Positions 28,809 to 64,000 of a stretch of 64,000 nt of DNA are shown here, one piece after another. Source of the DNA: Desulfobulbaceae bacterium BRH_c16a (lineage in GTDB: Bacteria > Desulfobacterota > Desulfobulbia > Desulfobulbales > Desulfocapsaceae); contig LADS01000058.1 of NCBI GenBank assembly GCA_000961725.1, forward strand, positions 124,001 to 188,000. The letters are read 5' to 3'. The translations under genes and the position numbers were made by a program. Numbering within the stretch: the stretch's first letter is position 1; every line of letters starts with the position of its first letter. A model generated the notes under the pieces. The model had not been told where the DNA came from and did not search any database. It saw only the letters and a list, made by a program, of their open reading frames with translations.

Positions 28809-28955
28809 CCGGCCTCTGGGGTCAGGTTGTGGCAACCCGATATTAACTGATTCACTGATATCTGGGAATTGACAAAGATGTTCTCTGGAGTTTATCTTTT
28901 AAAGAAGATATACCGATTTTATCGCAAGAGTCGGCAAAGTTGGGAGAGGAGCATT
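28714..28955 (+). pseudogene. chimeric HEPN remnant
   Basis: MTLSERDQVYVEHMLECIERVERFVGQDRN is a HEPN N-terminus ending at the duplication border (about 28808). From 28813 (GGGGTCAGGTTGTGGCAAC...) the sequence instead resembles the last 130 nt of the intact HEPN gene at 29287-29631, with many changes. Two HEPN relics have been joined. Confidence 0.55.
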
Positions 28956-29003
28956 AGAGATAATTTCGGAAATGTAACAGTAACGATCTGTTTTAGAATT
29001 GAT

Positions 29004-29294
29004 ATGAATCGACGAGATGCACTCAATACACTTGCAAAGGCGAAGGCCGAATTGGCCGAACGTTTCGGAGTAACCCGCCTTGCTCTGTTCGGATCGACGG
29101 CCCGTGATGTTGCCAAGCGAGAAAGCGACATTGACATCTTGGTGGCCTTCGATGGACCTGCCACATCTTCAAAATACTTTGGTGTTCAGTTCATGTTGGA
29201 AGATCTGTTTGGTTGCAGCGTTGACCTGGTAACTGAGAAGGCACTTCGCTCCGAACTTCGGACACATATCGAGAAGGAGGCGATCTATGTCTGA
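29004..29294 (+). CDS. mntA: MNT antitoxin of an intact MNT-HEPN pair
   Basis: 96 aa from MNRRDALNTLAKAKAELAERF; the ORF in the track starts 45 codons too early, in the upstream relic. FGSTARDVAKRESDIDILVAFD keeps GSx10DxD. The stop overlaps the HEPN start, as usual for MntA-HepT modules. It is expected to nucleotidylate the HEPN toxin and so inactivate it. Confidence 0.85.
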   Translation: MNRRDALNTLAKAKAELAERFGVTRLALFGSTARDVAKRESDIDILVAFDGPATSSKYFGVQFMLEDLFGCSVDLVTEKALRSELRTHIEKEAIYV

Positions 29295-30617: not shown

Positions 30618-30851
30618 ATGGAAATAAATGTTAAGGAAGCAAAATCGAAGATGGGCTCGCTTCTAGATCGATCCCAGAAGGGCGAAGAAGTAGTGATCAT
30701 GCGACGTGGAAGACGGATTGCCCGGCTTGTCCCTGTTAGTAGTACTGATAAGAGGCTTCCGGATCTGAAGGATTTTCGTGATTCCATCACGGTCAAAGGA
30801 GACACCCTCAGCAATACTGTCATACAAGGGCGTAATGAGGAACGATATTAA
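30618..30851 (+). CDS. Phd/YefM-type antitoxin
   Basis: 77 aa. MEINVKEAKSKMGSLLDRSQKGEEVVIMRRGRRIARLVP is the N-terminal DNA-binding fold of Phd/YefM antitoxins. The C-terminus (ITVKGDTLSNTVIQGRNEERY) would wrap the toxin. GGAGGATATCAAAT precedes the ATG. It overlaps the PIN toxin gene (TAATG), and such pairs usually autoregulate through the antitoxin. Confidence 0.87.
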   Translation: MEINVKEAKSKMGSLLDRSQKGEEVVIMRRGRRIARLVPVSSTDKRLPDLKDFRDSITVKGDTLSNTVIQGRNEERY

Positions 30852-31276
30852 TGGTATATGTTGATACGAGCGTTCTTGTGGCCTATTATTGCCCTGAAGC
30901 TTCGAGTGTGGCTGTTCAGGAATTTCTCATTGAGCACCCTAAGCCTGCGATCAGTTCGTTAACCGAGGTTGAGTTGTTTTCTGCCGTAGCACGGAAAGTA
31001 CGGATGAACGAGTTGGACCAGCTCGATGGAAATCGGATTATATCAAGATTCTTATCTCATCTGGATGCAGATTTTTTTACATTCATCTCAGTAGACAGCA
31101 GGCATTGGCGACTCGCCAGAAGTTATATCGGCCTGTTCAATACTCCTTTGCGGACTCTGGACGCACTTCATCTTGCAATTGCCTCATTAGAAGAATTTGA
31201 GTTGGTTACCTCCGACCAGCAACTTGTGCAGGCAGCGACTGTTTTGGGAGTAAAAATCCGCACGCTCAATCGGTAA
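30851..31276 (+). CDS. vapC: VapC-type PIN-domain toxin
   Basis: 141 aa PIN RNase. Acidic residues are in place: Asp in VYVDTSVLVAYY, Glu in SSLTEVELFSAV, Asp in LRTLDALHLAIA and Asp in ELVTSDQQLV. It is coupled to the antitoxin by a 1-nt overlap. The module appears intact. Confidence 0.88.
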   Translation: MVYVDTSVLVAYYCPEASSVAVQEFLIEHPKPAISSLTEVELFSAVARKVRMNELDQLDGNRIISRFLSHLDADFFTFISVDSRHWRLARSYIGLFNTPLRTLDALHLAIASLEEFELVTSDQQLVQAATVLGVKIRTLNR

Positions 31277-31335
31277 TTTGCTGTCTTTGAGGAGATTAGG
31301 GTCAGGAATCGAAGATATTAACTTTCCAATGGCCA

Positions 31336-31745
31336 ATCGAGATTGCCGGGATGGCTGAGATCGGCCACCGGCTGGAGAAAGACGGCCGCGCCGATTTCCT
31401 TTGCGGTGGTGAACACCATCTCCCGGTGGGCGCAATGCAGGTACTCGTCGGTATGAAATCCCAGCACTCGCCGCCAGCCGTTCATGGTAAAGGAGCGGGC
31501 TGTCTCAGAAGGGCTCAGCCGCAGATGCTGGAAGTCGTAATGGATCGGCAGGCTCACTCCCTCCAGTCTGCCGCCGATATACCAGGCCCCGACCCGATCA
31601 TACAGCTGCATGACGCAGGGATGGACGCACGGATCATCCGTGCCGTAGACAGACTTCGCCTCTTTCTGCTTGTCCGGCTTCCAGATATCCTCAACAGTCA
31701 AGGTGGTCAGCAGAAACCCTTCTGCCCCAAATATCCGCCGAGCTG
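31336..31745 (-). pseudogene. fragment of the sat (ATP sulfurylase) region
   Basis: Nearly identical to 33770-34160 of the intact gene; the 143-codon track ORF covers it. It includes the altered site GFHTDEYLHCAHRE, so that change predates this copy. Both ends are cut without start or stop context. The remaining 31746-32031 holds the leader of the 600-bp repeat and no gene. Confidence 0.75.
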
Positions 31746-31803
31746 TCAAGCATTCAATAATAATTTCAGCACTTTAACATCTTCTGCCATCTCCAGGCAA
31801 CTC

Positions 31804-32405
31804 TTGTCTTAACTTGTCAACTTCTAGGCCTGGCCCCGTTTTATGATTTTATAAGTTATGCTTTCTCATAGTTGCATGGTAAATTAAAAATAAACGTGGT
31901 CAATCTAGTCACAACACAGGAAATTGATTTCTTGTTTTTCACTCCTCAAGTACCACCTCACAACCACTTCCACGGGGATGTGTGGGTACCAAAAAGGCGG
32001 ACATCGACGATCCCCGAAAGGAGACGGTTTATGGACAGACTTATAGAAGAACACCGTGAAGAGATTAAGCGGCTTGCCCTCTTACGCGGCGCCCGCCGGG
32101 TGAGAGTATTCGGTTCGCGGGCTCGTGGCGATGCCGGTCCTGAAAGTGACGTGGATATCCTTATTGATCTTGAAAAAGGCCGTTCAGCCTTGGCGCTGGG
32201 GGGACTTCTGATGGACCTTCAGGATCTTTTGGGTAAGAAGGTGGAGGTGGTGACGCCGGCTGCCTTGCATCCGAGAATTCGCGACCGCATTCTTGGGCAG
32301 GCTGTTGATATATGACTCTCTCCGAACGTGATCAGGTATATGTTGAGCGCATGCTGGAGTGTATCGAACGCGTCGAGCGATTCGTAGGCCAAGACCGTAA
32401 TTTTT
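31804..32405 (+). repeat. 600-bp direct repeat, copy 2
   Basis: Matches 28207-28808 with few differences (for example GGGGATGTG for GGGTATGTG and ACGG inserted before the start codon). Confidence 0.85.
32032..32315 (+). CDS. MNT-type nucleotidyltransferase (duplicate copy 2)
   Basis: 94 aa with GAAAGGAGACGGTTT-ATG. Same protein as at 28434 (FGSRARGDAGPESDVDILIDL). It overlaps the following HEPN pseudogene at ATGA. A longer upstream start in the track lies in the shared leader and has no ribosome site. Confidence 0.78.
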
Positions 32406-32758: not shown

Positions 32759-34456
32759 TTAAACAATATACCCCTCCTGCGCCAAATACAGCAAAATCTC
32801 CTGCACCGCCTCCATCGGCGTATTTTTTGATGTATCGATAGTCAACTCCGGATTCGACGGCGGAACATAGGGATCGGTAATCCCGGTGACACCCTTCACC
32901 TTGCCGGCGCGGGCCTTGGCATAGAGTCCTTTCCGGTCGCGTTGTTCGCACACTTCGAGCGGAGTCGCCACATACACTTCAATATAACCGCCATAGCGGG
33001 AAATCAACTGGCGATTGGCCTGACGCGACTCTTCGTAGGGGGCGATCGGAGCACAGAGGGCGATACCGCCGTTCTTGGTTATTTCCCCGGCGACAAAACC
33101 AATCCGGGTGACATTCAGGTTACGATGCTCTTCGGAAAAGGTCAGCTCCGACGACAGATTTTTCCGGACAATATCCCCGTCCAGAAGAGTCACCGGCCGG
33201 TCGCACATTTCCATAAACTTCACCAGCAAAACCTTTGCGATAGTCGATTTGCCGGAGCCGGACAAGCCGGTCATAAAGATGGTGAAGCCCTGTTTCGACC
33301 GGGGCGGAAACGAGCATCGCAGCTGATCGACAACTTCCGGGTAGGAGAACCATGTCGGGATATCTTCGCCATGGATCAGACGACGCCGCAATTCACACGA
33401 AGAAATTGTGGCGACATCTTCTTCGTCCGCCTGAGTCAGCACGACATATTTTTTCAACTTCTGGTGATAGCCCATTTCGCGCTGGGGGACCATGACGATA
33501 CCGGTCTTCCCGGCATATTCGGCAACCAGCTCCTGGGCCAGGCCTCTCGGATAAAAACGATCCTCTTTTTCGCTTCCGGCAAGAGGATCGGCGTGATCGT
33601 CCGCCACTATAAAATGGCTGCAACCAAAGTTCTTGCGGATGATGGCCTGCCAGAGCGCTTCCTTCGGACCGGCCTTCCGGCAGGCGAAAGGGGTAAGCCC
33701 CAGTTTGATCATATTGGCCGGAAATTTATCGGTAAAAGCCTGATAACAGCGGATCTGGGTGTAGTAATCGAGATTGCCGGGATGGCTGAGATCGGCCACC
33801 GGCTGAAGAAAGACCGCCGCGCCGATTTCTTTTGCGGTGGTGAACACCATCTCCCGGTGGGCGCAATGCAGGTACTCGTCGGTATGAAATCCCAGCACTC
33901 GCCGCCAGCCGTTCATGGTAAAGGAGCGGGCTGTCTCCGAAGGGCTCAGCCGCAGATGCTGGAAGTCGTAATGGATCGGCAGGCTCACTCCCTCCAGTCT
34001 GCCGCCGATATACCAGGCCCCGACCCGATCATACAGCTGCATGACGCCGGGATGGACGCTCGGATCATCCGTGCCGTAGACAGACTTCGCCTCTTTCTGC
34101 TTATCCGGCTGCCAGATATCCTCAACAGTCAAGATGGCCAGCAGAAACCCTTCCTGATCGTTCAGGGCCAAGCGCTCACCAATTTTCAGCCTGCCTGCAG
34201 TCTTCTCGCTCACATCCAGGAAAATCGGAATGGGCCAGACAGTGCCGTTGGCCAGATGCATGGTGTCGATAACGGCATCATAGTCCTTCTGCCCCAGATA
34301 TCCGCCGAGCGGAAAAAGGCCACGATTCACCAGCAACTCAAAATCGCACAACTGTCGTGAAGACAAATCGATTGCCGCACATTCCGCCGCCTCGGCCCGT
34401 AATGCCTCGACACGCCTGAAATGAACGATTAAACTCTCTGAGTAATCCATTAACAT
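32759..34456 (-). CDS. bifunctional Sat-CysC (ATP sulfurylase / APS kinase)
   Basis: 565 aa. The N-terminal ATP-sulfurylase domain would make APS from sulfate and ATP; the C-terminal APS kinase would make PAPS. CysC is complete: P-loop MTGLSGSGKSTIA (about 395), LLDGDIVRKNLS, RIGFVAGEI and [12 protein letters not shown]. The sulfurylase site is not: where the family has (Q/H)TRNxxHRxH, this protein has GFHTDEYLHCAHRE, losing the Arg and Asn that bind ATP and sulfate. It may be only an APS kinase in practice. It is separate from dissimilatory sulfate genes. The polysaccharide locus downstream encodes a sulfotransferase-like protein that would need PAPS. Confidence 0.88.
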   Translation of the reverse strand: MLMDYSESLIVHFRRVEALRAEAAECAAIDLSSRQLCDFELLVNRGLFPLGGYLGQKDYDAVIDTMHLANGTVWPIPIFLDVSEKTAGRLKIGERLALNDQEGFLLAILTVEDIWQPDKQKEAKSVYGTDDPSVHPGVMQLYDRVGAWYIGGRLEGVSLPIHYDFQHLRLSPSETARSFTMNGWRRVLGFHTDEYLHCAHREMVFTTAKEIGAAVFLQPVADLSHPGNLDYYTQIRCYQAFTDKFPANMIKLGLTPFACRKAGPKEALWQAIIRKNFGCSHFIVADDHADPLAGSEKEDRFYPRGLAQELVAEYAGKTGIVMVPQREMGYHQKLKKYVVLTQADEEDVATISSCELRRRLIHGEDIPTWFSYPEVVDQLRCSFPPRSKQGFTIFMTGLSGSGKSTIAKVLLVKFMEMCDRPVTLLDGDIVRKNLSSELTFSEEHRNLNVTRIGFVAGEITKNGGIALCAPIAPYEESRQANRQLISRYGGYIEVYVATPLEVCEQRDRKGLYAKARAGKVKGVTGITDPYVPPSNPELTIDTSKNTPMEAVQEILLYLAQEGYIV

Positions 34457-35722: not shown

Positions 35723-35905
35723 ATGGATTCAAGAAAACATATTTGGGAAAAGCCTGAACTGATAATTATCGCCAGGGCTAATCCAGAGGAAGCTGTTTTG
35801 GCTGCGTGCTCGGGTTTGCGGCAAACTGCTGCCAACGTTAAACACGCTGACTGTACTATAGGAGCCAGTACTTGCGACCTCTGTGAAACACCAACAACAA
35901 GCTGA
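35723..35905 (+). CDS. candidate RiPP precursor peptide (PEEAVLxxC leader)
   Basis: 60 aa from the ATG at 35723 with GGAAGGGGGA 9 nt upstream; the longer track start lacks a ribosome site. The leader-like half is MDSRKHIWEKPELIIIARANPEEAVLAAC. The C-terminal half is rich in Cys, Thr, Ser and Ala (HADCTIGASTCDLCETPTTS) with Cys at 29, 44, 51 and 54. A PqqD-like protein and three radical SAM/SPASM enzymes follow on the same strand, the usual setting of a radical-SAM-modified peptide (thioether or other C-centred links). The modification is not known. Confidence 0.72.
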   Translation: MDSRKHIWEKPELIIIARANPEEAVLAACSGLRQTAANVKHADCTIGASTCDLCETPTTS

Positions 35906-35934: not shown

Positions 35935-36102
35935 AGCGGAAAAAAGTACGGCTGAAGGAGAACACATTACCCCATTCTCCTCGACAGAAAAGAGAGATTC
36001 CTTTTTGCGGCATCACGGCAGGGAAGTTTGCTGTCCGCTCTTTACCGGCTCCATGGCATCACCGGCAACGGAAGAGACCATGGAGTATCTGCCTACAAAA
36101 TA

Positions 36103-36450
36103 ATGAAAAATGCTGAGCGAAACACTATCCACAAGGAGCCACCATTGGGAGCAATAACCCTGTCCGATGTTTTTATACCCTCAGAAAATATAGTAGCCCG
36201 CAATATTGCCGGAGAGACCATCATCGTTCCAATTACATCAGGTGTAGGTGATCTGGAGGATGATCTCTACTGTTTAAATGCTACAGGACAGAAGATATGG
36301 GATCTGTTTAACGGGTCCACGAGCCTTGTGCAGATTATCGATCTTCTTGAAGCTGATTACGACACCACCCGGCAGGAAATTGAGGAGGACGTCAGAGGTC
36401 TGATAGCCGAACTGGCGAAGAGAAACATTATCACTAAATTGCAACAGTAA
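36103..36450 (+). CDS. PqqD-like RiPP recognition element
   Basis: 115 aa from MKNAERNTIHKEPP. The C-terminal two thirds form the PqqD winged-helix fold: DDLYCLNATGQKIWDLFNGSTSLVQIIDLL and ISRQ-like ending EIEEDVRGLIAELAKRNIIT. It would bind the precursor leader and present it to the radical SAM enzymes. The ATG overlaps (TAATG) a short upstream frame MASPATEETMEYLPTK, suggesting coupled translation. The earlier track start at 36028 is less likely. Confidence 0.8.
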   Translation: MKNAERNTIHKEPPLGAITLSDVFIPSENIVARNIAGETIIVPITSGVGDLEDDLYCLNATGQKIWDLFNGSTSLVQIIDLLEADYDTTRQEIEEDVRGLIAELAKRNIITKLQQ

Positions 36451-37746: not shown

Positions 37747-39762
37747 ATGACAGCTAAAAAGTATGTAAGCACAGTCTTGCCGCAGGCTTCAACCGCGTTT
37801 GCCACCCAGGGCACCATAGACCTGACTTATCGCTGCAACAACCAATGCCGCCACTGCTGGCTTCGCCTCCCTGAAAATGCGCCTGAACAATCCCAGGAGC
37901 TTACCTTTCGAGATATTGTTACAATCATAAAAAAAAGTATGGCTGCCGGATGTCGGCACTGGGCGATATCAGGTGGTGAACCGCTGTTGCGACCCGATTT
38001 CGGCGACATCCTTGCATACCTGCTCCAGACCCGGCATACATATTCACTTAACACCAACGGGACACTTATCACTCCGGCCATTGCCCGGCTTCTCAAGGCA
38101 AAAGGCACCAAAATGGTTTCCATGTATGGTCCCAATGCGGAGATCCATGACCATATCACTCGAAGGCCGGGATCGTTCGATGCTTTTGTGCAGGGATGCA
38201 GCTACCTGAAGGAGGCAGGCGCCGGTTTTATCGTCCAGATTGTGCCTCTGCAAGACAACAAGCATCTGTTTGCGGAGATGGTAACCCTTGCCGAGACTCT
38301 AAGCCCTCATGCCAGAATAGGAGCGGGTTGGCTCTATCTGTCGGATACTGCCAAGCGCTCGGTAAATGCAGAGATCCTCCGCCAGAGGATAGCCCCGGCG
38401 GAAATGGTACAGATCAATCCACCGGATTTGAGTTGTACAAACACAGCCGATCGGGCAGGTGACGACGTTGCAGAAACAGGACAGACCATCTTCGGAAAAT
38501 GTCTGACAAGGAAAACCGATTTCCATATAAACCCCTATGGCCGGATTTCTTTTTGTTGCTACATAAAGCATGAAGCGCTGCGATACGATATTCTGCACGG
38601 TAGTTTTGCAGAATACCAGCAATCTTTCCTGCCGGCGGCGGCAAAAAGCTTTCCCGAAAATGACGAGTACCGCCAAAACTGCGGCAGTTGCGAAAAACGG
38701 GACAACTGCCTGTGGTGTCCGGCCTTCGGATATCTCGAACATGGCAGGTTTTCGGCTGGAATTGATTATCTCTGCAAATTGGCCGAAGAAACTTCACACC
38801 TGCAAGAAAAATGGCTGAAAAACAACAGTAAATCAATGGAGATAGCCAATATATCAATCACTGTGGAGTCGGATATCCCCTTTACCAGTCCATCTTTTGC
38901 AGCGAAGTTTGCCAACTTTTCTACCGAACCGGCGGCAGAAGGAGATGTCATCATAATACGGCATCACCTGATACAGTCAGTACCTGCGCTTGTATTGGCC
39001 GACCTTGAGGGGAAAGAACTCTTCCAGACAGAGGGACTCACCGTCGGCAAAATTGGCAATAAATATATCTTTTATAAAAAAAATTACCGGGATGCGGATG
39101 ATCCGGCCGATGAATACGCAGTCTTCCATGATGATTTCAGCGAGGCCGATATCTACCACGCTGACAGGCGCTTTTATGAACCCGGCGCCTTTTCATCTAC
39201 AACCGCCATGTTTACGGACCAGATTCTGCTGGCGCAATTGCTGGCCGAACGGCAAGGTGGGATTTTTCATGCTAGTGGAATCATCCATAATGGCAACGGT
39301 TTTCTTTTTGTCGGCCATTCCGGAGCCGGAAAAAGTACGATCTTCTCTCTTTTTCCGCAGGACACTGCACTGCTGTCGGAAGACAGGGTTATCGTCCGCC
39401 GACAGGTATCGCAATGGAAGGTTTATGGCACCTGGTTCCACGATTTTTCCCATAACACCATACCGGGCCCGGCACCCCTGAGGGCAATTTTTTTTCTCAA
39501 TCAGTCGCAAACTAATCGTTTTGAACAGGTTGCCAGGGAGAATGTCATTGTTAAGCGGCTGCTGCCATGCCTGGTACGAGCCCTCGAAACGAATGCGTGG
39601 TGGGAGAAGACGCTCGATTTTCTCTCCACTGTTGCCGGAGAGGTGCCGGCTTACGATCTCTACTTTGACAGAAGCGGTGATATCGTCAGGCAGATAGACG
39701 ATCTTTTTCCGGGCACTCATGAAGGAAAACATATCAATGACTATAGAGATACTGAAAAATGA
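37747..39762 (+). CDS. radical SAM/SPASM enzyme 2 fused to an HPr-kinase-like domain
   Basis: 671 aa in two modules. Residues 1-350: radical SAM with CNNQCRHC, SGGEPLLRPDFGD, VSMYGPNAEIHDHITR and a SPASM tail (FGKCLTRKTDFHINPYGRISFCCY, CGSCEKRDNCLWCPAF). Residues 365-671: HPrK-like kinase with GGIFHASGIIHNGNGFLFVGHSGAGKST (P-loop about 521) and LLSEDRVIV. HPrK-like kinases phosphorylate Ser in some RiPPs, so one polypeptide may both crosslink and phosphorylate the peptide. Alternatively, the kinase domain may only bind ATP. The stop overlaps the next gene by 4 nt. Confidence 0.88.
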   Translation: MTAKKYVSTVLPQASTAFATQGTIDLTYRCNNQCRHCWLRLPENAPEQSQELTFRDIVTIIKKSMAAGCRHWAISGGEPLLRPDFGDILAYLLQTRHTYSLNTNGTLITPAIARLLKAKGTKMVSMYGPNAEIHDHITRRPGSFDAFVQGCSYLKEAGAGFIVQIVPLQDNKHLFAEMVTLAETLSPHARIGAGWLYLSDTAKRSVNAEILRQRIAPAEMVQINPPDLSCTNTADRAGDDVAETGQTIFGKCLTRKTDFHINPYGRISFCCYIKHEALRYDILHGSFAEYQQSFLPAAAKSFPENDEYRQNCGSCEKRDNCLWCPAFGYLEHGRFSAGIDYLCKLAEETSHLQEKWLKNNSKSMEIANISITVESDIPFTSPSFAAKFANFSTEPAAEGDVIIIRHHLIQSVPALVLADLEGKELFQTEGLTVGKIGNKYIFYKKNYRDADDPADEYAVFHDDFSEADIYHADRRFYEPGAFSSTTAMFTDQILLAQLLAERQGGIFHASGIIHNGNGFLFVGHSGAGKSTIFSLFPQDTALLSEDRVIVRRQVSQWKVYGTWFHDFSHNTIPGPAPLRAIFFLNQSQTNRFEQVARENVIVKRLLPCLVRALETNAWWEKTLDFLSTVAGEVPAYDLYFDRSGDIVRQIDDLFPGTHEGKHINDYRDTEK

Positions 39763-40943
39763 GCGCAACTCAATACGTCAGAAGGAAAACGCTGGAAGAG
39801 CTGTCACTGTTTAAAAAACCGGCACGGTTACTGACCCATCTCGATATCGAGCTTACCGAACGCTGCAATAACAACTGCCTGCACTGTTATGTCAACCACC
39901 CTGCCGACAGTATTCTCCACGCAAACCGGGAACTGAAAACCGAACACCATAAAGATATATTGAAAGAGGCTGCTGCCGCAGGCTGTTTCTCGGTACGGTT
40001 CACAGGCGGGGAGCCTCTGCTGCGACCTGACTTTGCAGAACTCTATATTCATGCCAAAAAAGCCGGCTTAAAGGTTATACTCTTTACCAATGCAACACTG
40101 TTGTCTCCAGAACTCATTCATCTTTTTAAGCAGATGCCACCAAAGGAGCCCATTGAAGTAACAATATACGGCATGCACAGGAAGTCTTGTGAAGCCATTA
40201 CAAGAACTATCGGCTCTTTTGATGCAACCCAGCGCGGTATTGACCTTCTCATAGCTGCCGCTATTCCCTTTGTTGTCAAGGGCGTCTGTCTGCCCCAAAA
40301 CCGCGAGGAACGAAAGCTTTTCGAGTCGTGGGCGGCAACCCTGCCGGGAATGAAAAACAGTCCGCCAAGCTATGCGATGCACTTCGATCTGCGCGTTCGC
40401 AGAGACAGCGAGACAAGAAATACCCTTATAAGAAACCTCAGGCCGACCAGACAGGAAAGCCTGGCATTTTCATTGCTGGACAAAGAGGCCTTCCTCAAGG
40501 AAACCAGAACTTTCTGCCGGATGTTTTCCGCCATTCCCGGGGCAAAGGTGTTCGGTTGCGGGGCAGGGCGCAACAACCTTGTCGTCGATTCGTATGGTGC
40601 GGTCTATCCCTGCCTGCTCCTGCGGCATCCCGATACAACCTATGCTCTGCACAAAGGTTCGCTCAAGGATGCAATGGAAAATTTTTTTCCAGCCCTGCTG
40701 TCCCTGGAGGCTGAAAACAAAGAGTATCTCAGGCGTTGTGCCAGGTGTTTTCTCAAAAGCTTCTGTAAACAATGCCCGGCAAGGTCATGGATGGAGAATG
40801 GCACTTTGGATACCCCGGTGGAATATCATTGCGTAATCGCCCACGCCCAGGCTGAAGCTGCAGGAATCCTCCAACCGGAAGAAAAATCCTGGGAAGTAAA
40901 AAACTGGAAGGAACGAGTAGACAGACTCGATGCCGATTACTGA
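39759..40943 (+). CDS. radical SAM/SPASM enzyme 3
   Basis: 394 aa. CNNNCLHC (about residues 36-43), RFTGGEPLLRPDF and VTIYGMHRKSCEAITR. SPASM: FGCGAGRNNLVVDSYGAVYPCLLL and CARCFLKSFCKQCPA. ATGA overlap with the fusion gene. Three non-identical SPASM enzymes suggest sequential modifications or several sites on the precursor. Confidence 0.9.
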   Translation: MSATQYVRRKTLEELSLFKKPARLLTHLDIELTERCNNNCLHCYVNHPADSILHANRELKTEHHKDILKEAAAAGCFSVRFTGGEPLLRPDFAELYIHAKKAGLKVILFTNATLLSPELIHLFKQMPPKEPIEVTIYGMHRKSCEAITRTIGSFDATQRGIDLLIAAAIPFVVKGVCLPQNREERKLFESWAATLPGMKNSPPSYAMHFDLRVRRDSETRNTLIRNLRPTRQESLAFSLLDKEAFLKETRTFCRMFSAIPGAKVFGCGAGRNNLVVDSYGAVYPCLLLRHPDTTYALHKGSLKDAMENFFPALLSLEAENKEYLRRCARCFLKSFCKQCPARSWMENGTLDTPVEYHCVIAHAQAEAAGILQPEEKSWEVKNWKERVDRLDADY

Positions 40944-43804: not shown

Positions 43805-44713
43805 TTGATGAAGTATATAGCTTACAATTTGACAATCGAGTCGGAATTGCCGCTGCCTCTCCCGGTCGATGATTCCGGCACACCAGCTGATATGGCTATA
43901 ACCATTGCTAAGATTGATGAACCGGAAAAGCTTTGCAGAACCTATGACGGTGTCTGGTATGCCCATGGCGAAAAATCCCTTTTGCTGCGATGGGATATTA
44001 TAGGAACCTTCTTAATTCAAAGGGGCGAGAAAATTATCTTAGATCCCGTCAGTGACTTAGGTGATCTATCTCTTTCGCTAGTCCCAATGCTGGGAACAGT
44101 AATTGCGGTGGCCATTTTCCAGCGAGGGTTGACAACATTACATGGCAGCAGTGTAGCGGTGAATGGAAAGGCTGTAATATTTTTAGGTGATAAAGGAAAA
44201 GGTAAATCTACGCTTGCCGCATACTGCCACCATCGGGGCTATTTGCTTGTCTCAGATGATATCTGTGCTATCGACAATAGAGAAGATAGAGATAGAAGAA
44301 GACCCTGCCTTTATCCATCATTTCCCTCGGTTAAGCTCTGGCCGGACGTAATGCACTACTTAGGTATGAATGAGTCGCAGCACAAGAGGGTTCATCCTTC
44401 CATACATAAAAGAATCATTTCATTTAATAAAGATTTCGCTGATCAGCCTTTGGAGATAGCGGCTATAATATTACTGGAGAAAGGAGATATTCTCCACATG
44501 ACAAAAATTGGGGGACACAAGACAGTTCCCAATCTACTACCGCATTTTCTGATTAACCGTTTTCCCGATGACCAACCTGGTCATCTTCAGGAAAGTGTTT
44601 TTTTCCAGCTGAATCGTTTAATCCAATCGATCCCGGTCTACAAACTACACAGACCCCATGATCTCTCGTTGCTACCCGATTCTTTGTCATTGATTAACAA
44701 GACGTTATTTTAA
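43805..44713 (+). CDS. HPrK-like kinase (lasso-peptide kinase candidate)
   Basis: 302 aa. LTTLHGSSVAVNGKAVIFLGDKGKGKSTLA (P-loop about residue 127) and LLVSDDICAID are the HPr-kinase core. The N-terminal 100 residues are specific to the RiPP-associated branch and the regulatory domain of true HPrK is missing. In paeninodin-type clusters such a kinase phosphorylates the C-terminal Ser of the lasso precursor. The precursor at 46792 ends in Ser, so the same reaction is likely here. Confidence 0.83.
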   Translation: MMKYIAYNLTIESELPLPLPVDDSGTPADMAITIAKIDEPEKLCRTYDGVWYAHGEKSLLLRWDIIGTFLIQRGEKIILDPVSDLGDLSLSLVPMLGTVIAVAIFQRGLTTLHGSSVAVNGKAVIFLGDKGKGKSTLAAYCHHRGYLLVSDDICAIDNREDRDRRRPCLYPSFPSVKLWPDVMHYLGMNESQHKRVHPSIHKRIISFNKDFADQPLEIAAIILLEKGDILHMTKIGGHKTVPNLLPHFLINRFPDDQPGHLQESVFFQLNRLIQSIPVYKLHRPHDLSLLPDSLSLINKTLF

Positions 44714-44749: not shown

Positions 44750-46633
44750 TTAATCATTTAGAGACAAATTTTCATTTTTCAGCCATGCATATACTGTCAG
44801 CACCTTCCAGACATCACTGAGTGCAGGGTCCTTTTTCTCTGGATGGGATTTGTGATGGTCGATGAGCTTTTTGACATCAAACCAATCCGACAACTCTTTT
44901 TGACATTGGCCCAAGATACTGTTTTCTAGGGGTTTATTGTAAATAAGATCGAGAACAGGTTCCATATCGGGGGTGAAATCTGTTTTGTCCGCCCGCCATT
45001 GAATCTTTTTTGGGATAATACCTTGCATGCTTCTTCTTTGTATGGACCTGGGCCAACCATTTTGGAATTTTTGATTTGTGGGTAAAGATAGGCAAAACTC
45101 CACAAGCCTTTTATCCCAAAACGGACAACGATATTCTATTGAAAAGTTCTCTGCGCTTCTCCCTAATACCTCGAGTGCAAAAGGTTGAATGGGGTGAAAT
45201 GCATGCTTGATATGATGAAATCTCTGTTTAGGGGAGTTCTCTTCTTCGCTTGCTGCAAACTCCAAACGCTCCTTTGCGTTTGAGCGTTTTAAAAAAGATT
45301 GAGAGCAGGCTTCTAATAAAGCGTTATTGGAGTGTGCTTGTGGCGGCAAATTCGAAGAATTGGTGCCCTTAAATCGAAAGAGATGGTAGATGAGGGGGTT
45401 GATGTTTTTTCGGAAATACTTTAGCAGGATTTTCTTCTGAATAGAGCGAGAAAGTGCTTTGTGAGCTAAAACTGTCTCTTTAAGAAGAGACAGTAATTTT
45501 TTCTCCTCAATTAACTCTATAAAATACCAAAGATCATTTGAGATTACGGTGTCGCCATCGTGGCCATCAAGCAGAAGCTGAACATGATTACTTTCCATTC
45601 GAGAAAGAAGGTTCCAATACATGAAATGATGGGGTGCATACCATGGTTGCTTTTGAACGGAAGCAATCTCGAAAAGTGATTCTAGAGGGTTTGTCTCATC
45701 AACGACCATTTTGTTCCATCGGAAAGACCCTTGCCGTAATGTTTCTTTGATATATTCTTGTTCATCGCATTGAATATATTTGTTAAAAATACCTGAGTAT
45801 ACTTGTAGAGGAAAATCATTTTCTTTCGCGATTTTTTTTTCGGCGACACATGCCACGGATGTCGAATCAAGCCCACCACTTAACGTTATTGCCAGGTCTT
45901 TTGAGTGCATTCGGCACTCCACCGCATCACGAAAGATTTCTCGAAAAGCTTCCTCATAGTCGGAATTTTTTTTGTAAGATAGAGGGCTGTAGCTGTATTC
46001 CCAGTACTTATCTATTTCAAAGTTATTTTCTGAAACTGTAATTGAGTGGGCAGGCGGCAGACGGAAGATATGCTTATAAAAAGTAGATTCGTTGTCTAAA
46101 CAGACAGACAGCATATAATCAACCAGACGTTCCTCATTGACCTTCTTTGGGATGTTCTGAAACATTAAAAGAATATCAAGAGAGGATGAAAACGAAAAAC
46201 GATTGTTATTGCAAAAATAATAGAATGGCTTCATGCCAAGGTGATCTCGAGCACAAAAAAGACGCTTTTCGTTTTTGTCCCATATCGCAAAAACGAAATC
46301 ACCAAGTAAATGCGAAGGGCAACTCCTCCCCCACTTTAAATAGGCAAGAGCGATAATCTCTTCGAGACACTCTGTTTTATTTTCTGATTTTTTTGGCAAC
46401 TCGACTTTATCTGCCAACTCACTGATATTATCGAGCCGTCCGGACGCAACCACTAGGAGGTGTTGTATTGGTATGGACTCATATAGGTAATAACTTTTCC
46501 CTATCCATCCCGCACCAATATTTTGAAATGATGAATTACTAAAATATCTCGATAAAGTTGATATGATTTGAGTATTATTTTGTCCACCAGCTCGAGGGGA
46601 GCGGTTTAGTGAGCCAAATAATTTACAAATCAT
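44750..46633 (-). CDS. asparagine-synthetase-like lasso cyclase
   Basis: 627 aa. N-terminal glutaminase-like domain (Cys at residue 3; LLGDFVFAIWDKNEKRLFCARDHLGMKPFYY), then the ATP-pyrophosphatase domain with LAITLSGGLDSTSVACVAE and LLDGHDGDTV. In lasso biosynthesis this enzyme adenylates the ring Asp/Glu and closes the macrolactam. It lies 158 nt downstream of a lasso-type precursor gene on the same strand and is convergent with the kinase gene. A free-asparagine synthetase is less likely given this setting. Confidence 0.88.
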   Translation of the reverse strand: MICKLFGSLNRSPRAGGQNNTQIISTLSRYFSNSSFQNIGAGWIGKSYYLYESIPIQHLLVVASGRLDNISELADKVELPKKSENKTECLEEIIALAYLKWGRSCPSHLLGDFVFAIWDKNEKRLFCARDHLGMKPFYYFCNNNRFSFSSSLDILLMFQNIPKKVNEERLVDYMLSVCLDNESTFYKHIFRLPPAHSITVSENNFEIDKYWEYSYSPLSYKKNSDYEEAFREIFRDAVECRMHSKDLAITLSGGLDSTSVACVAEKKIAKENDFPLQVYSGIFNKYIQCDEQEYIKETLRQGSFRWNKMVVDETNPLESLFEIASVQKQPWYAPHHFMYWNLLSRMESNHVQLLLDGHDGDTVISNDLWYFIELIEEKKLLSLLKETVLAHKALSRSIQKKILLKYFRKNINPLIYHLFRFKGTNSSNLPPQAHSNNALLEACSQSFLKRSNAKERLEFAASEEENSPKQRFHHIKHAFHPIQPFALEVLGRSAENFSIEYRCPFWDKRLVEFCLSLPTNQKFQNGWPRSIQRRSMQGIIPKKIQWRADKTDFTPDMEPVLDLIYNKPLENSILGQCQKELSDWFDVKKLIDHHKSHPEKKDPALSDVWKVLTVYAWLKNENLSLND

Positions 46634-46742
46634 CTATTGAGGAAGAAAAAGAGTGATGATCTGGATTAAAGAAGAGCAACAAGTGTTTGCAATCAAAGGC
46701 ACCTGTGCGTTCTCCTGAAAAAAAAGAGAGAAAATCATTTCC

Positions 46743-46768
46743 CCACCATCTGTAATCGTTGATGGTGG
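46743..46768 (-). terminator. attenuator hairpin between lasso precursor and cyclase
   Basis: CCACCATC (46743-46750) pairs with GATGGTGG (46761-46768). Read on the minus strand it is followed by AAATGATTTTCTCTCTTTTTTTTC. Such a hairpin between precursor and enzyme genes favours high peptide expression. Confidence 0.5.
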
Positions 46769-46791
46769 AGAAAGTTTTGTATATGACTTTA

Positions 46792-46929
46792 TTAACTAAA
46801 AATGTTGCCACTCGCACCTTGATTATAATTTGCATCAAGACGAGTCGGAGTAGGTGAGGAAGCTTTTGTTATCTCTTCTACATCGCCATAGACTACAACA
46901 ACCGGTGCCACATACTCTTTCTTTTCCAT
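46792..46929 (-). CDS. lasso-peptide precursor (not in the ORF track)
   Basis: 45 aa: MEKKEYVAPVVVVYGDVEEI, then TKASSPTPTRLDANYNQGASGNIFS. The leader has YxxP (Y6-P9) and a conserved-type Gly15. Thr21 is a good candidate for the -2 Thr that precedes lasso cores. If the core starts at Ala23 the ring acceptor is Asp32 at position 10; if at Ser24 it is position 9, as in paeninodin. The peptide ends in Ser45, the residue modified by HPrK-like kinases. AGGGGGT precedes the ATG. Confidence 0.78.
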   Translation of the reverse strand: MEKKEYVAPVVVVYGDVEEITKASSPTPTRLDANYNQGASGNIFS

Positions 46930-47091: not shown

Positions 47092-48900
47092 AGTGCCTGG
47101 AAAGAAATCGAAAAACGTCCACAAATCAAAGCGATGCCATCATAACCCACAGACGAAGAAAATGAGAGTGTAGACAGCGACGGATGTTGAATAATAATGT
47201 AACATGTTGATTTATATGGTATATACTTTTGTCAAAACCATTTAGCAGGGCTTCTGAACGGATAAGACGACTGCAACCACCAAATCTTCGTCGGATGAAA
47301 AACTCATGCGTAGAGTAATCGTACCACAAATGAAGTTGGGCGAACTGGCGATCGCCGACATAAAGCTGGACCCTAAATCACGCGATGATATCCCGCAAAT
47401 CCTGCGCGGACTCCAACACATATACACCACACCTGAACTGCGCGAGCAGATTTTTGCCATTCTGAAAGAGGTGCTGCCTGAGCATCAAATAGAAGGAAAG
47501 ACCGTCAAGGCCGACCCCAACAACGGTCGTCCCGGCATGACACAATGGCAGATTCTGGTGCTGGGGGTACTCAGATTGGGGCTCAACGCCGATTATGATC
47601 GTATCCAGGAGTTGGCCAACGAACATAAGACCCTTCGGCAAATGCTCGGTCACAGTAGTTGGGCGGACGAGAAATATTATAATCTGCAGACCCTCAAAGA
47701 TAATCTGCGGCTGTTTACTCCGGAAATCCTGGATCGGCTCAACCGGGTAATAGTTCGAGCGGGACACCGGGCATTAAAAAAAAAGCCGGAGGAAGGAGTC
47801 GTAGGCCGTTGTGATTCTTTTGTGGTGGAAACTGACGTCCATTTCCCCACTGATATCAACTTGTTGTTGGACGCCATCCGCAAGGTCATCGAAATCAGTG
47901 CTGAATTGTCCAGTACCCACAACCTGCCGGGGTGGCGGCAACACCACTACCACCAGCGTCAATTCAAAAGGCAATACCGCATAGTACAGCGGCTCAAGCA
48001 CTCCACTTCCAAAGACGAAAGCAAACAGCAGCGGAAAGAGCAGGATATTAAAGAGGCCCATCGTGTTTACCTGGACCTGGCGGAGGGTTATCTGACACGA
48101 GCCGAACAAACCCGTCAACACGTCAGCCCGCACGATCCTCTCTTCGTGATCAGGCTCAGCGAATTGAATGACTTCATCAAACATGCCCGTCGGCAGATCG
48201 ACCAGATTGACCGGCGAGTGCTCCAGGGCGAACATATTCCTCACAATGAGAAGGTGTTTTCCCTATTCCAACCACATACCGAATGGATCAGCAAAGGGAA
48301 GGCTGGCGTTCCTGTGGAGTTGGGACTGCGGGTGTGTATTATGGAAGACCGAGACCGCTTCATTCTGCATCACCGAGTGATGGTGAAGAGCACCGATGAC
48401 CAGGTGGCCTTTGCCATGGTGGGCGAAACCAAGCAGAAGTTCCCCACGTTACGGGCGGTCAGCATGGACAAAGGTTTCTATAGCCCAGCCAATCAGGAAG
48501 TGCTGAAATCGCGTCTTGATTGTGTGGTGCTGCCCAAAAAAGGTAGGCTTTCGCAAGCCGACAAAGCGCGCGAAAGCGATCCTGAATTTGTTAATCTGCG
48601 CAAACAACACTCGGCGGTGGCACGTAACATACAGCGTCTGGGTGCGGTGTTGCGTCAGCAGGAACAAGAGGCTGCTCAACGAAAACGCGGATCTTACAAG
48701 AAAGCTGCCTGAGAAGAGCAGGTTGCTCCGGCTGCAAAGTCGATGGAAGAGCTATGCCCGGCGAGGCTTGAAGATGAGAATTATTATCATTTTTTAGGCT
48801 ATGAGGACAAAAAAAATGCTGCCGGAAAGAAAGCCATCCACATTAACTGTGTCTGCGCTGGTACGAGTTTTTGAAAATTGGGGGTTTTCTGCCAGGCACT
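47092..48900 (+). mobile_element. ISNCY-type element nested in the IS701 relic
   Basis: 1809 bp with terminal repeats AGTGCCTGG (47092-47100) and CCAGGCACT (48892-48900). AAAT occurs directly on both sides, a possible 4-bp target duplication. Confidence 0.7.
47306..48712 (+). CDS. ISNCY-family transposase with internal deletion
   Basis: 468 aa. DSFVVETDVHFPTDINLLLDAIRK and VSMDKGFYSPANQEVL carry the two Asp residues of the DDE site. In the family the text after KQHSAV continues ESAINALE...GLDRC...GF, which bears the catalytic Glu, before RNIQRLG. Here KQHSAV joins directly to ARNIQRLGAVL, an in-frame deletion of about 35 residues. The protein is probably inactive. Confidence 0.82.
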   Translation: MRRVIVPQMKLGELAIADIKLDPKSRDDIPQILRGLQHIYTTPELREQIFAILKEVLPEHQIEGKTVKADPNNGRPGMTQWQILVLGVLRLGLNADYDRIQELANEHKTLRQMLGHSSWADEKYYNLQTLKDNLRLFTPEILDRLNRVIVRAGHRALKKKPEEGVVGRCDSFVVETDVHFPTDINLLLDAIRKVIEISAELSSTHNLPGWRQHHYHQRQFKRQYRIVQRLKHSTSKDESKQQRKEQDIKEAHRVYLDLAEGYLTRAEQTRQHVSPHDPLFVIRLSELNDFIKHARRQIDQIDRRVLQGEHIPHNEKVFSLFQPHTEWISKGKAGVPVELGLRVCIMEDRDRFILHHRVMVKSTDDQVAFAMVGETKQKFPTLRAVSMDKGFYSPANQEVLKSRLDCVVLPKKGRLSQADKARESDPEFVNLRKQHSAVARNIQRLGAVLRQQEQEAAQRKRGSYKKAA

Positions 48901-49973: not shown

Positions 49974-50168
49974 ATGTCTAACTGGCCTTATGAGAAGTAC
50001 TGGGTAGGTCTGAATATCAATTTGACATGGGAATCATTCATCAAAAAAAGGGATGTCATCAAACCATTCAAAAAGCAGTGGTTGGCGGAAAATATCCCAT
50101 TGAACGTTCACTTGTCTAAACTCGAGAATTATACTTTAATGCCTTATTTGCTGTTTCTATGTTTTTGA
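49974..50168 (+). CDS. doubtful 64-aa ORF
   Basis: MSNWPYEKYWVGLNINLTWESF... has no recognisable family and a weak ribosome site, and its end overlaps the next start by 10 nt. It may be a short leader gene or chance. Confidence 0.22.
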   Translation: MSNWPYEKYWVGLNINLTWESFIKKRDVIKPFKKQWLAENIPLNVHLSKLENYTLMPYLLFLCF

Positions 50169-51391
50169 AAAATTTAGAGATTGAGCATAAACAGTCTCCG
50201 GAAATTGCTGTATTGATAGCATGTTCTTCCAAGCAGCTCACGAAGGAGAATATACAAACACTGTCTGCATTGCTCGCCAAAACTTTGGACTGGGATGTGC
50301 TTCTTAGAAGTGCCCAGTATCACAAAGTTATCCCCTTGCTATATAAAACGCTTACTACTTACTTTAAAATGGACGTTCCTGAGCGGGTTTTCACAGACCT
50401 CTCGAAGCTAAATTGGAACAATTCTGTCCATTCCCTTAATGTTAGCGCGACGTTAGTCAATATAATCAAGCTATTTAATGAAAATGGCATTGATGTTTTG
50501 CCGATAAAAGGACCTTTGCTTGCTGAGAGACTGTACGGCTCCTGTTCTATGAGGATGTATGGAGATCTTGATATCCTGGTACGCCAGAAAGATTTAGAGA
50601 AATCCTTGAATGTCTTGCAGGAAAATAATTATAGATTGGTTCCGGAGGGAATTCCGCAATCAACCTATATGAAGTTTTTAAAGCACAAATACCATGGACA
50701 ACTCCTTAGTAAGAATGGAATATTTGTAGAAATGCATTGGGAATTGACGGGTTTCTATGTCTCTGAGCCTTTGACATTTGAACGTGTGGAACCTTTTTTG
50801 ATCAGAACAAAATTTTCCAATTATCCCACTTTGGATTTGATCGATGAAATGTTGCTTATATTTCTCTGCATCCATGGCAATAGCCATCGGTTAGAAAAAC
50901 TGGATTATATCTGTTCTGTTGCTGAGTTGTTGAAGATATCTCCAAATATCGACTGGGCATTAATAATGGAAATTGGCCAGAAATATAAAATGACTAAGAG
51001 AATATTGGTCACTCTTTGCCTTGCTAAAAAAATCTTTGGATCGGCAATTTCTGTATGGATAGAAGACGCAATTTCAAATAATAGGGCAGTCGCACAACGT
51101 GCTGATAGAGTAATGGGGCAGGATTTTATTGAAAATAGTGAAGCCTTTCGGCACCCGCTGCAGAGGCATATACGTTATCAATATAATGTCATGGACAATA
51201 AGTATGACTCGATCAAGTATATTTTACGTTCAATAGTTGTACCGAACCATAATGATTGGCAAAAGAAAAGATTTTCTGATGTGTTGTTTTGGTTTTATTT
51301 TTTATATAAACCTTACCGTATGTTATCTGTTCCTGTCCTAAATAGAATGAGTACAACCATTGATGATAACCTAAGGAAAAGAAAAGAGTAG
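50159..51391 (+). CDS. nucleotidyltransferase-like protein (NTP_transf_5 type)
   Basis: 410 aa. IDVLPIKGPLLAERLYGSCSMRMYGDLDILVRQKDLEKSLNVL is the signature of this family, whose members recur in lasso and polysaccharide clusters. DLDIL keeps the DxD pair. A paralogue of the same family lies at 62210. Role unknown; first gene of the surface-polysaccharide locus. Confidence 0.8.
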   Translation: MFLKNLEIEHKQSPEIAVLIACSSKQLTKENIQTLSALLAKTLDWDVLLRSAQYHKVIPLLYKTLTTYFKMDVPERVFTDLSKLNWNNSVHSLNVSATLVNIIKLFNENGIDVLPIKGPLLAERLYGSCSMRMYGDLDILVRQKDLEKSLNVLQENNYRLVPEGIPQSTYMKFLKHKYHGQLLSKNGIFVEMHWELTGFYVSEPLTFERVEPFLIRTKFSNYPTLDLIDEMLLIFLCIHGNSHRLEKLDYICSVAELLKISPNIDWALIMEIGQKYKMTKRILVTLCLAKKIFGSAISVWIEDAISNNRAVAQRADRVMGQDFIENSEAFRHPLQRHIRYQYNVMDNKYDSIKYILRSIVVPNHNDWQKKRFSDVLFWFYFLYKPYRMLSVPVLNRMSTTIDDNLRKRKE

Positions 51392-51484
51392 GCTGGATGT
51401 TTGCACAAACTAAACCCTAATTAATTAGTTCAGCAAGTGTAAACTTTCTGTAACTCTGTAGAAGTGGAGTACTAACCGTAACCC

Positions 51485-52993: not shown

Positions 52994-53101
52994 ATGACCA
53001 AGACAGTGGTTAAGTTTGTATTTTTATAGTTCCCACAAAAAAACTCAGAGAGCTAATCATCAAACTGCATATATCCTGCATTTAGTTATCGTGCTGGGAT
53101 T

Positions 53102-53809: not shown

Positions 53810-53869
53810 TTTTGCCAAAATAGAAAGCTTGGAATCTGGTAATGGTTTCTCTAAATAAAAAAATTATAA

Positions 53870-55888: not shown

Positions 55889-55891
55889 TTC

Positions 55892-56806: not shown

Positions 56807-56855
56807 TCCCTAAACGAAAATATTTTAAGGGAAGCTAGTTGAGTCGCATAAAAAA

Positions 56856-58145: not shown

Positions 58146-58232
58146 TTTATTATTACTCCTCAATCTAGAGCTTCAATACCAGCTTGAAGTATTTTTTGTG
58201 ATTTACATACTTTAGAAATTACTTTGATTTAG

Positions 58233-61444: not shown

Positions 61445-61448
61445 ATAA

Positions 61449-62209: not shown

Positions 62210-63394
62210 TTATCTCTTTCTCAATGACAGTATAAAGTCCATTAGTCGTGTTACCCCGTATACTATCTGGTGTTGAAGACCATACCAGAATCTGTCGACA
62301 AATGTGATTTGGCTGATCAGTTGCCATACTCGGAATGCTGTTGAGTTGTTTGTTGGTGTCGCGGAAAGAGCCGACTGCAATACCTTTCTATTTATAGAAT
62401 CTGTAAACGAGCCAGGTTTAAGTTTAGCCAGCAATGTTTCCGGAACTGGTGTCTGCATTATCGTTTTGCAATTAACAAGCAAATAATACAAGACTTTACG
62501 AGCATTCCACCGTTTTGCATGCAAAAAAAGAGTGGCTGAGTCAGGCTTCCACTGACACCAGACCTCATGGGCATCAAGAAGATTATGGGTACAAAAATCC
62601 AGATCTCTAAAAGCATGCACAGCCAAGTGAAGTAAGGTGTCTTCCGGAGATAAAATTCGGATATAATCAGATTGAAAGGCTGGATGTTGTGTGCTTCCCT
62701 TCCACAAATCTTCTTCTGCGATCGTGAAAAGATGAGGGTTGGTCAGCGCTCTGTGCACTTCGACTATAGGACCACCATTTCCCTTGGCAGAAAATACCCG
62801 TTCGAAAAGAGTTGAATATGTCGCCATCCTGGTATCGTCCAAGATGACGGGGTCAATGATATTATTCAAAAGGTTGCAGACACGTTCAAATTCATTTTCT
62901 TTTACTAGAAAATCGATATCTACGCCTAATCGTGGCGCATCCTGGGGATAAAGAGTGTCGGCAAAGGCTGAACCTTTGAGAATTATGGCAGAAATGGCGT
63001 TGTTCTGTAGAATATCGACAATTTTCTTTAGCCATTTTTTTTGTACTATATCATCTGCTATAGAGCGATAGGTGGCGTTCTTTAAGTGAGATAATGTTAT
63101 CGGTGAAATTCTGTCTTTCAGGTTGGCCTGTATTGTGTTGCGGTAAAGGAGTGGGTAGATTCCACCCGGCAGAGTGGTTCGAGATCCGGTTGACGTAAAT
63201 ATTGAATCCAGGACCTTGATGCTCTCTTCTACAGAAAAGAATTCTTGGTTGGATTCCTTGCTGAGTCTGGCAAAATTGAGCACAAACTGTAACGTCAAAT
63301 TTGTTTTTGCGGGGTATTGGGCGTTGCTTGGCATGGAATGAGATTCTATTGGCCGCAACCGTTTTGTGATAATGGCATCTCTTTGTAGCAGCAA
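62210..63394 (-). CDS. nucleotidyltransferase-like protein of a lasso cluster (NTP_transf_5 type)
   Basis: 394 aa, or 374 from the Met at 63334. ISAIILKGSAFADTLYPQDAPRLGVDIDFLVKENEFERVCNLL is the family signature with DID. It overlaps the B2 gene by 49 nt from the first start. Such proteins accompany paeninodin-type lasso clusters together with HPrK-like kinases; their role is not settled. Paralogue of the gene at 50159. Confidence 0.8.
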   Translation of the reverse strand: MLLQRDAIITKRLRPIESHSMPSNAQYPAKTNLTLQFVLNFARLSKESNQEFFSVEESIKVLDSIFTSTGSRTTLPGGIYPLLYRNTIQANLKDRISPITLSHLKNATYRSIADDIVQKKWLKKIVDILQNNAISAIILKGSAFADTLYPQDAPRLGVDIDFLVKENEFERVCNLLNNIIDPVILDDTRMATYSTLFERVFSAKGNGGPIVEVHRALTNPHLFTIAEEDLWKGSTQHPAFQSDYIRILSPEDTLLHLAVHAFRDLDFCTHNLLDAHEVWCQWKPDSATLFLHAKRWNARKVLYYLLVNCKTIMQTPVPETLLAKLKPGSFTDSINRKVLQSALSATPTNNSTAFRVWQLISQITFVDRFWYGLQHQIVYGVTRLMDFILSLRKR

Positions 63395-63789
63395 ATATCT
63401 TCAACAAAACCGGTAATGATCTTATCGTCGAGGGTCAGCCAGGCATGTGCTTTGAGGCTGCCATCGTTTTCTTTGCTGACCCCGATATGCAGTTTGGTTT
63501 TGTATCCATGCGAAGAGAAAAGCACGTTGCCGGCTAATGCTTTTGAAAGGCAAGTGCTGAAAGGGATAATTCTGGCGGCTGCATCTAAGAGGGCGGCTAT
63601 TCTTTGGGAGGGTGAAGATTGTGGCCGGCTTGCAAAGAACTGCGCTGAAGCCTGGCTGTTATGGCGTGCGGCTCTCTCGAAGCTCTGATATGCCAGCCGG
63701 ATACGCCATGATATAAGGAGAAGGATTGCTCGACCGAAGAGCTTTTTTTCCTTGCGGGAGAGGCGTACATATTTAACGATCCGCTTCAA
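63346..63789 (-). CDS. lasso B2 transglutaminase-like leader peptidase
   Basis: 147 aa, TTG start overlapping the end of B1. FSTCLSKALAGNVLFSSHGYKTKLHIGVSKE has the catalytic Cys, KAHAWLTLDD the His, and an Asp follows in GFVED. B2 proteins cut lasso precursors before the cyclase acts. No precursor or cyclase is next to it in the visible part. Confidence 0.87.
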   Translation of the reverse strand: MKRIVKYVRLSRKEKKLFGRAILLLISWRIRLAYQSFERAARHNSQASAQFFASRPQSSPSQRIAALLDAAARIIPFSTCLSKALAGNVLFSSHGYKTKLHIGVSKENDGSLKAHAWLTLDDKIITGFVEDICCYKEMPLSQNGCGQ

Positions 63790-64000
63790 CCTTGACCTCG
63801 ATTAATGAGTTTGCCGCCATATCATTGAGAAATGTTATTAAGTGCGCAGTGCAATCTTCTTCTGACACATTAAATTCTTGCAGTATTCGTGATTTCAGGT
63901 CATCAAACTTTTTTTGTTTTTCCAGCTCTTCCCAGACCACCGTGCCAACTTCGTTCAGTCCGCAGTATTTTCCGGTTTTCATATTCAAGATTACGGTTTC
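63773..64000 (-). CDS. lasso B1 PqqD-like leader-binding protein, 5' end beyond the window
   Basis: At least 75 aa are visible; the frame stays open to base 64000 (ETVILNMKTGKYCGLNEVGTVVWEELE), so the Met at 63988 is internal. The fold is the PqqD/RRE winged helix that binds the lasso leader (YxxP motif). It is translationally coupled to B2. Confidence 0.87.
   Translation of the reverse strand, partial: ETVILNMKTGKYCGLNEVGTVVWEELEKQKKFDDLKSRILQEFNVSEEDCTAHLITFLNDMAANSLIEVKVEADR

Follow-up and report, generated by a model that had tools for sequence, protein, structure and literature searches.

The locus described here raises the question of whether a single protein can combine radical SAM chemistry with peptide phosphorylation and, if so, on which substrate the two activities act. 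The open reading frame (ORF) concerned lies in a stretch of 64,000 nucleotides from contig LADS01000058.1 of Desulfobulbaceae bacterium BRH_c16a, hereafter called the window. The original prediction was that one 671-aa frame joins a peptide-crosslinking module and a Ser-kinase-like module, and that the kinase-like domain may share ancestry with a free HPrK-like kinase encoded nearby. That first reading did not include four findings reported below, namely the precursor, its C-terminal Ser, the conservation of the cassette and its wide occurrence.

The fusion frame, its catalytic residues and its fold

The ORF is ATG-started and runs on the plus strand for 671 aa without an internal stop, and the same fusion recurs at 79 loci, which bears out the predicted joining of both modules in one frame. 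The prediction was open to refutation by a hidden stop between the modules or by loss of the catalytic Asp residues. No such stop was found in the frame, and the acidic pair is kept, as Glu545-Asp546 here and as Asp-Asp in most relatives. An in-frame ATG (M364, position 38836) occurs at the module junction, with no obvious Shine-Dalgarno sequence. The Radical_SAM profile (PF04055, 6e-20) matched residues 26-173 of the fusion. Among 60 aligned fusions, C30, C34 and C37 of the CxxxCxxC motif are invariant, as are the SPASM residues C252, C270, C312, C315, C321, C324 and C343. With CxxxCxxC, a seven-Cys SPASM domain, and a precursor and a PqqD partner encoded in its cluster, the window fusion has the sequence features of a radical SAM/SPASM maturase.

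Comparison of the kinase module alone with profiles gave matches to HprK_rel_B (TIGR04355, 1.9e-8), ScmC (TIGR04249, 3e-6) and HPr(Ser) kinase (TIGR00679, 0.0018), all of them under the curated cut-offs. The tetrad positions of the fused domains are H508, K529, [DE]545 and [DE]546, occupied in the window by H-K-E-D. HKDD was found in 68 of the 80 fused domains, and HK[DE][DE] in 73/80 fused and 34/36 standalone domains; the tetrad is missing in 7/80 fused domains, some of them on truncated contigs. Glu545 in place of the first Asp occurs, among fused domains, only in the window and in its closest relative (L033). It could be argued that kinase activity has been lost and that the domain instead binds nucleotide or peptide and regulates or positions the radical SAM module, as the Glu545 of the window and the loss of the tetrad in a few fused domains would allow. 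However, the frequency of HK[DE][DE], the invariance of H508, K529 and the P-loop glycines in the 60 aligned fusions (domains without the His or Lys having been excluded), and the presence of an intact standalone kinase at L161, where the fused domain is degraded, all argue against this explanation, which we regard as quite unlikely. At L161, as also at L158, a fused domain without catalytic residues lies beside a standalone kinase, as if the function had moved; at L158 the standalone kinase is partial, at a contig edge.

A sequence-only search of the PDB with the kinase profile was swamped by ABC P-loops, and fold comparison is the better evidence. The structure model of the kinase module (pLDDT 90, pTM 0.88) aligned with PEP carboxykinase 2pc9 (Z 12.9, 5.4 Å, 239 residues, spanning residues 1-297), and a Foldseek search with this model returned PEPCK (E 1.2e-6) and the HprK/P of several organisms (E 1.9e-4). 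The fold, P-loop and acidic pair shared by the PEPCK/HprK superfamily are all found in the fused domain, which according to the model has this fold over its whole length. In the model of the full-length fusion (pLDDT 87.8, pTM 0.83), a single helix (residues 340-360) continues directly into strand 1 of the kinase domain.

Cassette, distribution and kinase ancestry

When 84,980 species genomes were scanned, 79 loci with a relative were obtained. When the scan loci, the window and the loci from the phylum searches were counted together and duplicates removed, the fusion was present as one ORF at 79 distinct loci (80 fused ORFs) in bacteria and archaea. The hosts belong to Desulfobacterota, Chlorobiaceae, Omnitrophota, Aminicenantes, Acidobacteriota, Chloroflexi, Planctomycetota, WOR-1/WOR-3, Myxococcota and methanogens, and single assignments among them may be wrong because most fusion loci come from metagenome-assembled genomes. 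An assembly artefact is ruled out since two isolates, Desulfosediminicola flagellatus (complete chromosome) and Desulfofustis glycolicus DSM 9705, carry the fusion, which is thus neither an artefact nor unique. At other loci, cassettes of this type encode the kinase as a gene of its own.

In the window, the genes for the precursor, PqqD-like protein, rSAM1, fusion, rSAM3, S24/S26 protease, ABC protein and free HPrK-like kinase lie on a common strand (Table 1), and rSAM3 is found directly 3' of the fusion in most loci. Among the 54 loci of at least 12 kb, PqqD is present in 49, the S24/S26 protease in 48, at least two further radical SAM proteins in 50, and an ABC exporter and an NTP_transf_5 protein in 22 each; over all fusion loci, NTP_transf_5 occurs in 27/79. 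Homologues of the MsbA-like exporter adjoin the cassette in L034, L035, L040 and L041. An additional cassette gene that recurs encodes a class I methyltransferase (19/79 fusion loci, e.g. L143 13774-14565). A second, diverged branch (L036, L083, L085-L088 and similar loci) has single-rSAM cassettes with PqqD, a standalone kinase and an S24/S26 protease. Selenocysteine encoded by in-frame TGA in G035 and G019 was considered and rejected, as these TGAs are normal gene ends that the alignment had overrun.

Table 1. Features of the fusion cassette and of the lasso genes in the window
Feature	Position	Strand	Basis
Precursor peptide, 60 aa, MDSRKHIWEKPELIIIARANPEEAVLAACSGLRQTAANVKHADCTIGASTCDLCETPTTS, four Cys, C-terminal Ser	35723..35905	+	Leader HMM 50.2 bits
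PqqD-like peptide-binding (RRE) protein; TTG-started ORF, in-frame ATG at 36103	36028..36450	+	PF05402 9.3e-14
rSAM1, radical SAM/SPASM, 371 aa	36560..37675	+	PF04055 6.9e-23
Fusion of rSAM/SPASM and PEPCK/HprK-fold kinase domain, 671 aa	37747..39762	+	ORF, profiles, alignment, models
rSAM/SPASM module, about aa 1-360, CxxxCxxC and seven SPASM Cys	37747..38826	+	Profile, alignment
P-loop kinase-like module, about aa 361-671: H508 (39268), P-loop GHSGAGKST with K529 (39331), E545-D546 (39379-39384)	38827..39759	+	Profiles, alignment, model
rSAM3, radical SAM/SPASM, 394 aa; start overlaps fusion stop by 4 nt	39759..40943	+	PF04055 2.3e-21
S24/S26 signal-peptidase-like protease, 164 aa	41043..41537	+	PF00717 2.5e-7, TIGR02228 2.4e-13
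MsbA-like ABC exporter, 609 aa	41940..43769	+	PF00005 1.9e-33
Free HPrK-like kinase, lasso type, H-K-D-D	43805..44713	+	PF07475 6.1e-7, under cut-off; tree placement
Lasso cyclase (AsnB/C protein)	44750..46633	-	PF00733 8.7e-42
Lasso precursor, MEKKEYVAPVVVVYGDVEEITKASSPTPTRLDANYNQGASGNIFS, C-terminal Ser too	46792..46929	-	NF033521 lasso leader 21.8 bits, cut-off 19
NTP_transf_5 nucleotidyltransferase, lasso side	62210..63394	-	PF14907 3.2e-33
Lasso B2 leader peptidase, transglutaminase-like	63346..63789	-	PF13471 above cut-off

The lasso genes of the window, which include a B1-like PqqD on the lasso strand that is truncated where the window ends, are distinct from the fusion cassette and have a kinase of their own. 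The earlier assignment of the nearby free HPrK-like kinase to the lasso system was supported: eight related loci were read, and in seven of them its homologue lies beside a lasso AsnB with PqqD or transglutaminase genes or with a precursor of lasso type. In the window, the free kinase is encoded in the same direction as the rSAM operon and converges with the lasso cyclase gene, and most relatives in other genomes are on the lasso strand. The fused and the free window kinases show 18% identity and have long branches. The best relatives of the free kinase (33-42%) come from lasso clusters within the same family, and it groups with the lasso kinases in the tree (support value 100); the fused domain of the window groups with the D. 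flagellatus fusion. A constraint making the two window kinases sisters was rejected under the model used (p-AU 3e-6). Given the long branches, the placement of the free kinase in the lasso clade and this rejection, only the superfamily is shared, so that the suggested shared ancestry holds at the level of PEPCK/HprK but not as close kinship. That the two are recent copies of one gene might be supposed from their both being HPrK-like, lying 4 kb apart and each adjoining a Ser-ending precursor, but the low identity, the lasso-clade position of the free kinase and the rejected sister relation leave this with practically no probability. A single origin of all fused forms was also rejected, by a one-clade constraint (p-AU 4e-32), and fusion or splitting therefore occurred more than once; the fused/standalone label changes about 6-9 times in the tree, by splitting or joining. 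The root of the first tree was not used, its HprK/P outgroup rows being partly truncated and long-branched.

Precursor family and its terminal residue

Small ORFs in the gaps between genes yielded a precursor family whose leader reads WxxPxLxVLxRxxPEEaVLxxCK and whose core is Cys-rich and variable. The search profile covers the leader only (threshold 15 bits), and the C-terminus therefore could not bias the search. The results showed 112 precursors in 70 loci, and the window precursor was recovered independently when its own genome was searched with the leader profile (3.2e-13). The last residue is Ser in 97/112 precursors and Thr in 8/112, compared with 39 Ser-ending proteins among 486 other cassette proteins (Fisher p 1e-62, a value that overstates independence because the precursors share descent, although their cores are very diverse). 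Ser accounts for 8.7% of core residues. The entropy of the last position is 0.88 bits and that of the rest of the last 25 positions 3.3-4.1, except at -7, where Cys occurs in 77/112 precursors. Five further precursors remote from cassettes (in G242, G463 and G478) likewise end in Ser. In the phylum sample, each of the 14 genomes that strongly matched the precursor profile carries the kinase too, and kinase-free precursors that could serve as a control for the terminal Ser were absent from this sample. In the diverged branch, the precursors have the leader YxxPxxxxVxLxxEEAVLxxCK and again Ser at the C-terminus. At L040 (10142-11176), a kinase with Glu-Glu for Asp-Asp adjoins a precursor candidate that is not Ser-ending, a hint of covariation.

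Kinases of class III and class IV lanthipeptides introduce phosphate as a leaving group for dehydration. The fused kinase might similarly act on Ser/Thr inside the core, as a lasting mark or to provide such a leaving group, with the terminal Ser serving for recognition only. The cores do contain further Ser/Thr and many Cys, and the lasso kinase BsfK phosphorylates an internal ring Ser of its precursor (PMC10368454), so that the phosphorylation site is not readable from homology. However, the family has no positionally conserved internal Ser or Thr, the terminal Ser and Cys -7 being the only conserved residues near the end, and the recurrent neighbours include no lyase gene; an internal site is therefore considered unlikely.

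Proposed function and comparison with known systems

Among lasso kinases, PadeK, ThcoK and PsmK place a phosphate on the C-terminal Ser of the precursor (PMC9266682; see also PMC7533575), and the His-Lys-Asp-Asp tetrad has been found necessary in tailoring lasso kinases by mutation (PMC9266682). Like these enzymes, the fusion has a PEPCK/HprK-type domain with the H-K-D-D tetrad (apart from Glu545 in the window), belongs to a RiPP cluster with a PqqD-like protein and a Ser-ending precursor, and is accompanied by a nucleotidyltransferase in part of the loci. Unlike them, its kinase is fused to a radical SAM/SPASM module and falls in a separate clade, its precursor is Cys-rich without a lasso leader, and its cassettes (rSAM, PqqD, S24/S26) lack the AsnB cyclase and B2. 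Judged from sequence and its context, the fusion is probably a radical SAM RiPP maturase that also phosphorylates the C-terminal Ser of its precursor. This proposal builds on the observed domain architecture, the conservation of both catalytic sets, the fold, the cassette, the precursors and the terminal Ser, from which we infer the chemical steps, their order and the roles of the protease, exporter and NTP_transf_5 protein. Observations that count against C-terminal Ser phosphorylation include Glu545 in the window; the Cys-ending precursor (6748-6936), the only one found, at L033 of D. flagellatus, the closest relative, whose fusion kinase has the same H-K-E-D; and the Ser-ending precursor at L129, where the tetrad of the fused domain is lost and no second kinase is in view.

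In the proposed pathway, the leader of the Cys-rich precursor would be held on the PqqD-like protein. The radical SAM/SPASM module of the fusion, together with rSAM1 and rSAM3, would then form radical-derived bonds in the core, with thioether or other Cys crosslinks the most likely; crosslinking by the radical SAM module is plausible in view of its SPASM architecture, the PqqD-like protein and the Cys-rich precursor. The fused PEPCK/HprK-fold domain would transfer phosphate from a nucleoside triphosphate to the hydroxyl of the C-terminal Ser, as PadeK and ThcoK do on lasso precursors, and the fusion would keep the two active sites together on a single substrate bound by its leader. The S24/S26 protease would subsequently cut off the leader, and the ABC protein would export the product. 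In about a third of the relatives, the NTP_transf_5 protein may further decorate the phosphoserine.

The last step leads to another reading, in which the phosphate is an intermediate for glycosylation. Nucleotidyltransferases accompany lasso kinases (PMC7533575), the nucleotidyltransferase PsmN puts a hexose on phosphoserine (PMC9266682), and NTP_transf_5 is found in 27/79 fusion loci and twice in the window (50159 and 62210). However, two thirds of the loci have no NTP_transf_5 gene within reach, and the window copies belong one to the lasso side and one to a glycan block, making this reading possible but doubtful.

Other known systems resemble the cassette in part. The SynChlorMet proteins ScmC, ScmD, ScmE and ScmF (TIGR04248-TIGR04251) likewise comprise a PqqD homologue, radical SAM/SPASM proteins and, in ScmC, a protein distantly related to the kinase domain; the ScmC model is matched by 66 of 70 members. 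The scores, however, are far under the cut-offs (ScmC 26.8/125 bits, ScmF 89.6/400 bits), and to our knowledge neither a fusion nor a precursor is known in the SynChlorMet model set. HprK/P shares the fold, P-loop, H-K-D-D and DR motif but differs in score (TIGR00679 17.6/240 bits) and in setting, which here is not sugar regulation; a search of the window's own genome for canonical HprK/P gave no match at E 1e-20. SPASM RiPP maturases (PqqE, MftC, SkfB and the ranthipeptide and sactipeptide synthases) have the same radical SAM/SPASM architecture, PqqD/RRE partner and Cys-rich precursor, but not the C-terminal kinase domain or three radical SAM proteins per cassette, and their equivalog cut-offs are not reached.

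No model naming the fusion or the precursor family was found in NCBIfam and Pfam, and the open-licence literature returned nothing on SynChlorMet, the precursor motif or an rSAM-HPrK fusion. The enzyme families of the system are known ones, but their combination is new, fused and widespread, and it comes with a candidate substrate and a predicted modified residue. We lean, with some reserve, towards a RiPP class undescribed in the literature searched, occurring in many bacterial phyla and in methanogens, in which Cys-rich peptides would be crosslinked by a radical SAM/SPASM trio, phosphorylated on the C-terminal Ser by the fused kinase and, at some of the loci, decorated further on the phosphate. 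If true, this would provide a bifunctional radical SAM-kinase enzyme and extend C-terminal phosphoserine marking beyond the lasso peptides, and would suggest the same C-terminal Ser kinase logic in two unrelated RiPP scaffolds, lasso and radical SAM, within one genome. For a widespread system absent from public family libraries, a candidate substrate (precursors of 60 aa whose leader is recognisable), a predicted modified residue (the last Ser) and a putative enzyme can now be named.

Several features of the surroundings were also recorded. The lasso cluster is split, with the precursor and cyclase (44750-46929) 15 kb from NTP_transf_5, B2 and B1 (62210-64000). Between the two parts lie an IS-like ORF (47306-48712) and a glycan-synthesis block of 35% G+C (50159-62207), which is headed by the second NTP_transf_5 protein (50159-51391, PF14907 1.7e-46). 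Upstream of the cassette, ORFs for toxin-antitoxin-type small nucleotidyltransferases and PIN-domain proteins occur at 28869-29294, 30851-31276 and 31872-32315, and a partial copy of a sulfate-adenylyltransferase/APS-kinase-like gene adjoins the complete one (31318-31749 and 32759-34456, both on the minus strand).
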